Shown in pieces: positions 16,707 to 36,188 of a stretch of DNA of 64,000 nucleotides (the stretch's first letter is position 1; each line of letters begins with the position of its first letter). Origin of the DNA: an uncultured Pelagibacteraceae bacterium (GTDB taxonomy: Bacteria; Pseudomonadota; Alphaproteobacteria; Pelagibacterales; Pelagibacteraceae); the NCBI GenBank assembly GCA_902627935.1, contig CACOLA010000002.1, positions 124,001 through 188,000 of the forward strand. Direction: 5' to 3'. The translations under genes were made by a program, and so were the position numbers. A model generated the notes under the pieces. That model did not search any database. It saw nothing but the letters and a program-made list of their open reading frames with translations, and was not told where the DNA came from.

Positions 16707-16943
16707 TTATTTACTTTTACTGGCCCACCACTTATCTAAAATAAAATACCAAATAGCATTAGCTAATGGTTCAACAATAGCATCTGTAAGAGCTATCCAA
16801 AAGGATACGTTAGCTATTAACATCAAAACAGAAATTGCTATAATAAAATGACCTATTGTATAAATAATTGTCCTTAAAATTGATCCTCTATTATTCTTAT
16901 AAATAGTACCTGCAGCTGATATAATTCCAGACGTAAGTTCCAT
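16707..16943 (-). CDS. DUF2061-like small membrane protein
   Basis: 78 aa, RTIIYTIGHFIIAISV...EPLANAIWYFILDKWW. Confidence 0.65.
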   Translation of the reverse strand: MELTSGIISAAGTIYKNNRGSILRTIIYTIGHFIIAISVLMLIANVSFWIALTDAIVEPLANAIWYFILDKWWASKSK

Positions 16944-17539
16944 TACTTTTTAAAAGGACTTTCTAACACACATGCAACAAGATGTATTCTTGCTTGCTCA
17001 CCTCCATTAAAAAAATTATGATATTTTGTGTTATTTGTTATCCAAACATTTCCATCAGCTGGAAGGTGTTTTGCAACATTTTCAATTACCATTGAGCAAC
17101 CTTTATTAGTAATGATCGGTACATGTAGTCTACACTCAGGATCTTTATGCCAGCTTAGGGTCGATCTTGGCTCTTTAAGTAACAACCTTACTCTACCTAA
17201 TTTAAATCTTTTATTGAGTGTGTCATAAACTTCCTTGAAATAAGTTTTCTCAAATTCAGGAATTAATTGTGTATACTTTGATTCATCTATATCAATATCT
17301 CTAGAAACTTCTTTTCCTGTATCATCTGCAATTGTCCAATACTTGCCTCTTATATTATTTCCACTAACAGAACTTTCGTCGTTTGGAATTTGATTGATTG
17401 GTATTGCTCCAAAATGAGTTACTCCAGGAGAATTAAATTTTTTCTTCGATAAAATTTTGTTCAAATCATTCTTTAACTTTACAATATCAAAGTTAAGTTC
17501 TGGTACTTGGTAAAAATCTTCAAAGCTCACATTAGCCAT
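16943..17539 (-). CDS. Aspartyl/asparaginyl beta-hydroxylase-like (cupin-fold) protein
   Basis: STLSWHKDPECRLHVPIITNKGC...GNVWITNNTKYHNFFNGGEQARIHLV (HxD...H pattern). Confidence 0.75.
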   Translation of the reverse strand: MANVSFEDFYQVPELNFDIVKLKNDLNKILSKKKFNSPGVTHFGAIPINQIPNDESSVSGNNIRGKYWTIADDTGKEVSRDIDIDESKYTQLIPEFEKTYFKEVYDTLNKRFKLGRVRLLLKEPRSTLSWHKDPECRLHVPIITNKGCSMVIENVAKHLPADGNVWITNNTKYHNFFNGGEQARIHLVACVLESPFKK

Positions 17540-17567: not shown

Positions 17568-19805
17568 TTAATTTAACTTCAAATCAAATCGATCTGCATT
17601 CATAACTTTAACCCATGCGGCAATAAAATCTTTTATAAATTTTTCTTGTGAATCTTCACATGCATACACCTCGGCTAAAGCTCTTAGTTGAGAGTTTGAA
17701 CCAAAAATAAGGTCTACTCTAGTGCCTTTCCATTTAACTTTTTTTGATTTTCGGTCGGTTCCAATAAATATTTGTTCAGATTTATCTGTTTCTTTCCAAG
17801 TTGTGTTCATGTCTAACAAATTTGTAAAATAATCATTTGTCAATACACCTATTTTTTTTGTAAAAACACCATGATTAGAACCATCAAAGTTAGTGCCAAG
17901 AACACGCAAACCACCTATCAGAGCTGTCATTTCTGGAGCTGTAAGTCCCATTAACTGAGCTTTGTCTATCAATTTTTCCTCAGAAGATACAATTGATTTA
18001 TGTCCATTTATATAATTTCTAAAACCGTCCGCCTCAGGTTCCAACAAGCCAAATGAATTTATATCTGTTTGGTCTTGTCTTGCGTCTCCTCTTCCAGAGG
18101 TGAATGGAACATTTACATTATATCCAGCTTTTTTAGCTGCCATCTCAACTCCAACTCCTCCTGCTAAAACAATCAGATCAGCCATAGAAACAATTTTCTT
18201 TTTGTTATCAAATTTATTTTTGATTTTTTTTAAAGCTGAAATAACTTTTGATAGTCTTGCTGGATTATTAACTTTCCAATTCTTTTGTGGCTCTAACATT
18301 ATTCTTGCTCCGTTAGCTCCACCTCTTTTATCTGAACCTCTGAACGTAGAAGCTGAAGACCATGCAGTAAAAACCATATCAGAAATTGATAGTTTTGATT
18401 TTAATAATTTAGATTTTAGATCATTTATATCTTTTGATTTAAGTTTATATTTGGGTTTATCTATTGGATCTTGCCAAATTAATTCCTCTTTCGGTACTTC
18501 ACTTCCTAAATAACAAGCTCTGGGACCCATGTCTCTGTGTGTTAGTTTGAACCAAGCCCTTGCAAATGCATCATGGAATTCTTTAGGATTTTCATGGAAA
18601 TGTCTTGTTATGGGTCCATAACTTGGATCAACTTTCATTGAAATATCTGTCGTTTGCATCATTGGAGGATGCATTACATTCTTGTCATGAGCATCAGGTA
18701 CCATCTTAATTTCTTGTCCATTCTTCTTTGGTGTCCATTGATGTGCACCAGCAGGACTTTTTGTAAGTTCCCACTCATGTCCATAAAGACAATCAAGATA
18801 ACCCATGTCCCATTTAATTGGGTTCTGCGTCCATGCACCTTCAATACCACTACTTATTGTATGAACCCCTTTTCCAGACTTATAACTACTATTCCATCCC
18901 GTAGATTGGTCTTGAATTTTTGAAGCTTCAGGGTCTGGACCTTTGTATGACTCTGAAGCTGCACCATGCGATTTACCAAATGTATGTCCGCCAGCGACTA
19001 ATGCTGCAGTTTCATAATCATTCATTGCCATTCTTCCAAATGTCTCTCTAATATCGTGTGCAGCAAGCAATGGATCAGGGTTAGCATCTGGCCCTTGAGG
19101 GTTTACGTAAATAAGCCCCATGTGTGAAGCTCCTAAAGGTTGTTCTAAATCTCTTTTTCCACTATACCTTTTTACATCTAACATTTCTTTTTCAGAGCCC
19201 CAATAAATATCGTCCTCAGGTTCCCAGATATCTACTCTTCCAGCACCAAAGCCAAAAGTTTTGAAACCCATTGAGTCTAATGCAACATTACCAACTAAAA
19301 TAAATAGGTCTGCCCAAGATATTTTTTTTCCGTATTTTTGCTTTATTGGCCATAAGAGGAGTCTTGCCTTATCTAAATTAACATTATCTGGCCAAGAGTT
19401 TAAAGGTGCAAATCTCTGATTACCTGTTCCTGCTCCACCTCTGCCATCTCCTGTTCTGTAAGTACCTGCCGCGTGCCAAGCAAGTCTAATAAATAAAGGA
19501 CCATAATGACCATAATCTGCCGGCCACCACTCTTGGGATTCGGTCATCAATTTTTTTAAGTCTTTTTTAAGAGCTTTAAAATTTAGCTTTTTAAATTCTT
19601 TCGAATAATTGAATTTTTTATCCATTGGATTTGATAAATCGGAGTGCTGGGCAAGAATTTTTAGATTTAGACTATTTGGCCAAAAATCCCTGTTCGATTG
19701 ACCTCTTCCAGCAGAAAATTTTGCTGGAGTTCCTGCACCCGTGAATGGACACTTAGCTAATTGATTTTTCTTAAAAGATTTACTTTTAAAATTCTCAGTA
19801 CTCAT
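17568..19805 (-). CDS. katG: Catalase-peroxidase
   Basis: [36 protein letters not shown]; 745 aa with both peroxidase domains. Confidence 0.98.
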
Positions 19806-19840: not shown

Positions 19841-19857
19841 TTTATAACGATTCTAAA
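19841..19857. promoter_or_regulatory. Candidate Irr box (ICE) in katG promoter
   Basis: TTTATAA-CGA-TTCTAAA, one half-site mismatch from TTTAGAA-N3-TTCTAAA; just downstream of a TTGACA -35-like hexamer (minus strand, 19867->19862). Confidence 0.55.
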
Positions 19858-19892
19858 GAACTGTCAATTGTATAAATTTGATAAATAAAAAA

Positions 19893-20291
19893 TTAATCTT
19901 CAAGCTTAACTAGAACTTCAACTGACTTAATTTTTTTTCCTTCAATTTTTTTTAAAATTTTTATTGGTCCAACATCAGAATTTTTAATGTCTATTAGTTT
20001 TTCTTCATTTAAGTCATAGAAATGATGATGGTCTGTAGTATTAGTATCAAAAAAAGTTTGATCCGTATTAATTGAGATTTTCTTTAAATATCCTTTCTTT
20101 TCAAAAGCATGAACAGTGTTGTAGACTGTAGCTAAAGATATTTTAGCATTAAGACTTTTCTTAATTTTTTTTGCTAAATTATTAATTGTGAAATGGAAAG
20201 TTTCTTTATTATTAAATAAAACTTCACATATTTGTAGTCTTTGCTTGGTAGGTCTTAATCCAGAATTTCTCAGTTTTTCAATATATTTCAC
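19893..20291 (-). CDS. irr: Fur-family regulator, Irr-like
   Basis: LRNSGLRPTKQRLQICEVLF...ISLATVYNTVHAFEKKGYLKKI...DHHHFYD; GTG start proposed (MKYIEKLRNSGLRP); position next to fabA-fabB. Confidence 0.8.
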   Translation of the reverse strand: MKYIEKLRNSGLRPTKQRLQICEVLFNNKETFHFTINNLAKKIKKSLNAKISLATVYNTVHAFEKKGYLKKISINTDQTFFDTNTTDHHHFYDLNEEKLIDIKNSDVGPIKILKKIEGKKIKSVEVLVKLED

Positions 20292-20306: not shown

Positions 20307-20323
20307 ATTTGTTATTAACAAAT
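20307..20323. promoter_or_regulatory. Perfect palindrome ATTTGTTA-T-TAACAAAT between irr and fabA
   Basis: 8-1-8 inverted repeat read directly. Confidence 0.5.
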
Positions 20324-20376
20324 CTAAAAGTATATTATATATGGTTAAAATCAAGTAAATATGGGTATCAAGTTGT

Positions 20377-20880
20377 ATGAAAAAAAACTCATTCACATAT
20401 GAAGAACTTATCAGTTGTGCCAATGGCCAACTTTTTGGCAAAGGTAATGCTAAATTACCGCTTCCACCAATGCTTATGTTTGATAGAATTACTGAAATTA
20501 ATGATGATAATGGTAATTTTAAAAAAGGTTCATTAAAAGCAGAATTAGACATAAAAAAAGATCTTTGGTTTTTTGATTGTCATTTTAATGGTGATCCTGT
20601 TATGCCGGGATGTCTTGGTCTTGATGCCATGTGGCAGTTAGTAGGATTTTATTTGGGTTGGATTGGAAATCCAGGTAAGGGTAGGGCTTTAGGAGTAGGA
20701 ACCGTAAAATTTACTGGTGAAGTTTTACAAAATGTAAAACTAGTAAAGTATGAAATAGATATGAAAAAAATTATGTCTCCAGGAGGCACAACTGTAGGTC
20801 TAGCAAATGGAATTGTTTTAGCGGATGATAAAAAAATCTATTCCGCTGAAAGCTTAAAAGTGGGATTATTTAAGGAATGA
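20377..20880 (+). CDS. fabA: 3-hydroxydecanoyl-ACP dehydratase/isomerase
   Basis: [33 protein letters not shown]. Confidence 0.96.
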
Positions 20881-35762: not shown

Positions 35763-36188
35763 TTATTGAGATTTCTTTTTAACTCCATAGAGCTCTAATT
35801 TGTGATCCACTAAAGTGTAACCATATTTTTCTGCAACTTTTTTCTGAAGTTTATCAATTTCTTCATCCACAAATTCTATAATTTCTCCAGTTTTTATATC
35901 TATCAGGTGATTGTGATCATCGTGTAATTCATATCTAGCTTTACCACCTTTAAAATCATGTTTAACCAAAATTCCTGCCTCTTCAAAAAGTTTTACAGTT
36001 CTATATACAGTAGCAATACTAATTTTTGGATCAATTTTTGAAACTCTATTATATAACTCATCTACATCTGGATGATCAGATTCTCCATATGCCTCTTTTG
36101 ATTCTAATATAACTTTAGCGATTATTCTTCTTTGATCAGTAAGCTTAACTCCTTTAGCTTCAAATTTTTGTTCTATCTTATCTGCCAT
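35763..36188 (-). CDS. fur: Ferric uptake regulator family protein
   Basis: LTDQRRIIAKVI...HPDVDELYNRVSKIDPKISIATVYRTVKLFEEAGI, HDDHNHLID. Confidence 0.93.
   Translation of the reverse strand: MADKIEQKFEAKGVKLTDQRRIIAKVILESKEAYGESDHPDVDELYNRVSKIDPKISIATVYRTVKLFEEAGILVKHDFKGGKARYELHDDHNHLIDIKTGEIIEFVDEEIDKLQKKVAEKYGYTLVDHKLELYGVKKKSQ

Follow-up and report, generated by a model that had tools for sequence, protein, structure and literature searches.

The irr-katG locus

In the 64,000-nucleotide stretch of Pelagibacteraceae DNA analysed here (the window), irr, katG and an Asp/Arg-hydroxylase-like gene follow one another in this order on the minus strand, and fabA-fabB-fabI diverge from irr. The features of the locus, together with the canonical Fur gene of the same window, are:

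16943 to 17539, minus strand: Asp/Arg beta-hydroxylase-like gene (Pfam PF05118), 28 bp downstream of katG
17568 to 19805, minus strand: katG, the proposed controlled gene, encoding the heme enzyme catalase-peroxidase HPI of 745 aa (NCBIfam PRK15061, 1215.7 bits; TIGR00198, 1137.2 bits)
19841 to 19846, minus strand: inferred katG -10 hexamer TATAAA within the operator (spacer to TTGAC of 15-17 in relatives)
19841 to 19857, minus strand: putative Irr-type, ICE-like operator on the katG -10 (overlapping it), a 7-1-7 inverted repeat (TTTAGAATCGTTATAAA) assigned from its conservation in relatives
19862 to 19867, minus strand: inferred katG -35 hexamer TTGACA, read from the sequence
19893 to 20291, minus strand: irr, Fur family, Irr/IrrA clade, with a probable GTG start near 20291 (NCBIfam IrrA, 126 bits; Irr, 119 bits)
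20312 to 20328, minus strand: decayed irr autoregulatory box TTTAGATTTGTTAATAA with 4 mismatches, compared with the boxes of relatives
20377 to 20880, plus strand: fabA (NCBIfam), the divergently transcribed neighbour, an anchor for the irr locus
35763 to 36188, minus strand: canonical Fur gene, about 16 kb from the katG site

The 87 bp of intergenic DNA between the irr stop codon (19893-19895) and the ATG of katG at 19805 contain the site that a first-pass annotation had described as a near-consensus Irr box. Its letters and coordinates proved exact: the plus strand reads TTTATAACGATTCTAAA at 19841-19857, with a single mismatch to the iron control element (ICE) TTTAGAA-N3-TTCTAAA, where up to two were allowed for a conserved ICE at a promoter. 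The claimed placement downstream of TTGACA (19867-19862) and over the katG -10 region was likewise borne out, and the right half of TTTAGAATCGTTATAAA, read on the katG strand, contains the best -10 hexamer (TATAAA, 19846-19841). The spacer between the two hexamers is 15 bp in the window, which is why the katG promoter is absent from the list of a generic promoter scan.

In most relatives, an intact autoregulatory box is located about 14 bp before irr. The corresponding box of the window has decayed, so this strain may no longer autoregulate irr. At the other end of the locus, the Asp/Arg-hydroxylase-like gene may be an operon partner of katG that is co-transcribed under the same operator; such a gene apparently also occurs 3' of katG in several relatives. 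The genome additionally holds a third Fur-family match besides irr and the canonical Fur.

Taken alone, the katG site is weak evidence, because 23 of 100 shuffled windows hold at least one equally good site (0.28 sites expected in the window at up to one mismatch). At up to three mismatches, the window is at background level (49 sites observed vs 42 expected). In the host genome, a 1.04-Mb draft that is 87% complete, a pattern search returned three one-mismatch sites, and since the other two fall into coding sequence (guaA and a 377-aa ORF), the katG site is the sole intergenic one. Among dinucleotide-shuffled 160-bp upstream regions, 0.07% contained a site with up to one and 0.9% a site with up to two mismatches. 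Random sites of equal score, which the first-pass annotation had named as a potential objection, are thus not frequent elsewhere.

Conservation of the box and its dependence on irr

A search for KatG in 147 genomes of the family Pelagibacteraceae was positive for 96. In alignments of the katG upstream regions, TTTAGAAT-N-ATTATAAA is near-invariant and lies 3' of TTGAC, which is followed after 15-17 bp by TATAAA; the site of the window is one base off this consensus. Five katG promoters (L006, L016, L017, L027 and L029) have a second copy of the box directly upstream of the -35. A second type of KatG, found in other genera and 55-59% identical to that of the window, is preceded by the same box wherever irr sits upstream. 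Altogether, of the katG promoters that adjoin irr, 92 out of 94 contain a box with up to two mismatches (75/77 and 17/17 by KatG type), so that the motif is indeed kept upstream of katG in relatives, as the original proposal demanded. These 94 promoters pool two partially overlapping sets of unnamed and named genomes, many of them incomplete single-cell genomes, and the relatives are not independent samples, so their relatedness inflates any formal test of the association between box and irr. The weight of the evidence comes from a pattern repeated across genera and two KatG types.

The presence of the box also follows that of the regulator gene. Among 22 katG promoters without irr (8 of type A and 14 of type B KatG), 21 are devoid of the box, and only the promoter of L023 has an intact one. 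In all eight type-A loci lacking irr, fabA adjoins katG, indicating that irr was deleted in place. Upon these deletions the box was lost or eroded in seven of eight cases, and in L031 and L032 the decayed box is still recognisable (TTTAGATCGATTACAAA and TTTGGATCGATTACAAA, respectively).

The exact pattern TTTAGAANNATTATAAA occurs at 125 sites in the 147 genomes; 97 of these lie within 200 bp of irr, in 76 of the 87 genomes possessing irr. The distant sites that were fetched mostly fall into coding sequence or lie at its ends (the end of an alanine dehydrogenase gene, a glycosyltransferase gene and others) and were read as chance occurrences. Two fetched sites are exceptions, the katG site of genome G006 and a site in G014, where an exact box (L141:1407-1423) is located between a 1-Cys peroxiredoxin gene and the divergent gene of a FAD/NAD oxidoreductase. 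Peroxiredoxin is therefore a possible third peroxide target in one genome. At the stringency of the exact pattern, the predicted regulon is essentially one locus, irr and the gene behind it.

A chance match in AT-rich DNA, or a motif kept by promoter constraint alone, would be in line with the 23% probability of such a site in the window and with the overlap of the -10 hexamer with half of the box. However, TTTAGAAT is invariant although it lies outside the -10, loss of irr is accompanied by loss of the box although katG still requires a promoter, and the exact sites cluster at irr. The chance reading of the katG site is contradicted by the comparison with relatives and was rejected; we consider this explanation extremely unlikely. 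Binding of the box by the canonical Fur or another Fur paralogue instead of Irr is suggested by the 7-1-7 form common to Fur-family boxes, by the fur gene 16 kb from the site and by the direct Fur control of katG reported in Magnetospirillum (PMC5459824). But the box tracks irr, and several genomes without irr retain Fur, speaking against binding by Fur: G001, G009 and G022 possess a strong Fur, yet have no box at katG, and the FTR1-like permease genes there carry different, more Fur-like boxes (TTGAGAATCATTCTCAT). Fur was therefore rejected as the binder and is highly unlikely to act here. Upstream of the FTR1-like iron permease genes of L077, L078, L099 and L100, Fur-like boxes occur in pairs with a spacing of about 28 bp.

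Exchange of katG and rbr behind the box

In the first ten genomes examined that belong to the same genus and have no katG, a rubrerythrin gene (rbr) is next after irr, with one or two boxes at the rbr promoter and usually one at irr. Across the 147 genomes, rbr is present in 21, always together with irr and never with katG; the chance of this zero overlap with the 96 katG genomes is about 8e-12 if genomes are assumed to be independent, which these are not. The 87 genomes with irr possess either katG (65) or rbr (21), and the one that has neither shows a partial irr match only. The slot behind irr is occupied by katG in 56 and by rbr in 23 of 80 named loci (one is unassigned), and a box within two mismatches of the SAR11 consensus lies between irr and the next gene in 79 of the 80. 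Explaining the slot contents on a tree of FabA and FabB requires 11 changes, of which at least five fall on well-supported (starred) branches.

A two-box promoter (box-CTG-TTGACA-box) is common to some katG loci and several rbr loci, suggesting that one coding gene replaced the other behind a promoter that stayed in place. In many rbr promoters, the best box is located upstream of the -35, a position from which Irr can also activate, and the sign of regulation is thus less certain at rbr than at katG. A conserved gene with a FDICHGCRRCFNLC cysteine motif (Fe-S oxidoreductase-like) is found behind rbr in L108-L114 and L145 and in the class loci L238, L241 and L246; it is possibly a partner for rubrerythrin.

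In the wider Alphaproteobacteria, the Irr profile gave strong matches in 145 of 240 genomes. Among 48 loci sampled outside the family, rbr follows irr in 39 (27 of the 28 best scoring and 12 of the 20 others), usually with an ICE, and the only katG case is L265, a non-SAR11 alphaproteobacterium with the order fabA-irr-katG and a box with two mismatches. In many class irr-rbr loci exactly 3 nt separate the ICE from the rbr -35 that follows it (box-CTA/CTG-TTGAC), a spacing as in SAR11. The class-wide linkage and the shared spacing indicate that the irr-rbr pair is probably ancestral and katG the newcomer. It appears that katG genes of SAR11 took over a promoter from an irr-rbr module that is older and alphaproteobacterial.

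Regulator, signal and known systems

Among the Fur-family models, IrrA (126 bits) and Irr (119 bits) match the regulator best, while PerR reaches at most 55 and Fur at most 41 bits, which upholds the Irr-like nature proposed for the neighbour of katG. Both scores stay below the curated cut-offs (150 bits for IrrA, 170 for Irr), and Irr homologues adjoining rbr in other Alphaproteobacteria pass the cut-off (196-225). By its profile matches, the protein classifies as a divergent member of the Irr/IrrA clade. The N-terminal Cys-Pro heme regulatory motif of the Bradyrhizobium japonicum type is absent from the regulator in alignments including 27 homologues; Brucella-type Irr is also devoid of it (PMC3413700). 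The His-cluster H88-H89-H90 (HHH/HxH, the second heme site) is invariant in the homologues. The PerR metal ligands H37, D85, H91, H93 and D104 align to H33, D82, H88, H90 and D101, which are likewise invariant in the 27 homologues. By themselves, these five ligands cannot tell Irr and PerR apart, because B. japonicum Irr has the same five and its PerR-equivalent histidine is oxidised (PMC4700492). In the regulator, the Cys4 site for the structural zinc of PerR is incomplete, as the first CxxC is replaced and C22 is the sole invariant cysteine. The closest solved protein by sequence is Bacillus subtilis PerR (2fe3), and a fold search matched PerR and Fur structures alike.

Sequence comparison shows that there is an operator, that it is conserved and depends on irr, and that it persists where rbr replaces katG; from these findings we infer binding by Irr, repression and the signal. 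The site in the katG promoter is almost certainly a real operator, and very probably the neighbouring Irr-clade protein would bind it. As the box is positioned over the katG -10, the bound dimer would cover this element and block RNA polymerase, leading to repression. Taken together, conservation, irr dependence and retention at rbr make Irr repression of katG well supported and, in our estimate, likely, in agreement with the Irr-type operator in a repressor position that had been proposed. The signal would most likely be H2O2, sensed in a PerR-like manner via iron held by H33, D82, H88, H90 and D101; oxidation of a ligand histidine would release the operator, and low iron would do so too. The circuit would be local, made up of irr and the adjoining peroxidase, rather than a genome-wide iron regulon.

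The heme-responsive control suggested by the first-pass annotation, on the grounds that KatG is a heme enzyme, found no support: the same operator is found at the non-heme rbr and, in one genome, at peroxiredoxin, and the regulator is without the heme regulatory motif, though it has preserved the His-cluster, where heme may bind. What the targets share is hydrogen peroxide, not heme. With katG or rbr, peroxiredoxin in one genome and the irr box in most relatives, the target set is that of a PerR-type regulon. We favour peroxide as the signal because of these targets, autoregulation and the response of rbr in 'Ca. P. ubique', which goes up 1.57-fold in iron limitation, with no significant change of the Irr protein (PMC2864753); classical Irr would repress at low iron.

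Such classical iron economy, as it underlay the first-pass annotation, would have apo-Irr repress the iron-costly KatG or rubrerythrin under heme or iron shortage and release them when heme is plentiful. It accords with the Irr ancestry of the regulator and its HHH cluster, the ICE type of the operator, the iron-rich nature of both targets (heme KatG and rubrerythrin) and the repression of iron storage genes and mbfA by rhizobial Irr at low iron (PMC7762939, PMC3413700). It is at odds with the rise of rbr in iron limitation (PMC2864753) and the missing heme regulatory motif; moreover, among exact sites in the 147 genomes the box is at no other iron-economy gene, and in one genome the metal-free peroxiredoxin carries it. 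Iron economy therefore appears rather unlikely to us, and peroxide, as opposed to heme or iron economy, has a somewhat better than even standing as the signal. Against our overall reading speak the small size of the rbr change, which concerns RNA only, the conservation of a His-cluster that is heme-binding in other Irr proteins, the intact box at katG in the irr-less genome G006, and the 15-bp spacer of the window, which is short for a strong promoter. On balance, we assign a probability of roughly 0.6 to the view that the regulator, with its operator on katG, descends from Irr and acts as a local peroxide repressor in the manner of PerR.

The surface ocean is dominated by SAR11 bacteria, for which a reliance on others for peroxide removal is often discussed. 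A pangenome study of 2025 found katG mainly in offshore SAR11 genera (PMC12636525). Our data show members with irr but without katG to carry rbr in the same regulated slot, so that lack of a catalase does not equal lack of a controlled peroxide defence. The fixed switch with katG and rbr swapped behind it points to dedicated control of peroxide defence more than to general iron or heme control. By extension, alphaproteobacterial Irr proteins linked to rbr may sense peroxide instead of iron or heme. Tentatively, at slightly less than even odds, these rbr-linked proteins, those of SAR11 included, may be peroxide sensors that acquired a PerR-like function within the Irr clade. They would form a circuit confined to one locus, in which the operator stays fixed while the effector gene behind it, for rubrerythrin or catalase-peroxidase, changes freely and in accordance with habitat. 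Irr, ICE, KatG and Rbr are known parts. New within the accessible literature, which does not include the main Irr-box predictions (Rodionov et al. 2006), are the capture by katG, a slot whose gene can be exchanged and the local, PerR-like nature of the circuit.

Several known systems resemble parts of this circuit. B. subtilis PerR shares the five metal ligands, a 7-1-7 operator, typical peroxide targets and autoregulation. In contrast, the SAR11 protein falls outside the PerR clade by profile (55 vs 126 bits) and is without the structural-zinc CxxC pair, and its box has TTAGAAT where the half of the PerR box is TTATAAT. The rhizobial Irr/ICE system has in common an Irr-clade Fur-family protein, the operator TTTAGAA-N3-TTCTAAA and a box that covers the start region, which is also its position at the repressed mbfA and bfr (PMC3413700). 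There, however, Irr governs a global iron regulon vs essentially one locus here, where the regulator has no heme regulatory motif, the targets are peroxide-removing enzymes and rbr responds to iron in the opposite direction (one data set). Magnetospirillum gryphiswaldense likewise possesses several Irr-type regulators, IrrA, IrrB and IrrC, with the IrrA model being the best NCBIfam match here, and its irrA expression responds to oxygen (PMC5459824); unlike in SAR11, its katG is reported to be under Fur. In Rhodobacter sphaeroides, loss of irr similarly raises a catalase, with katE up about 6-fold and increased H2O2 resistance (PMC3413700), but katE is under OxyR there and boxes are predicted only at mbfA and ccpA.
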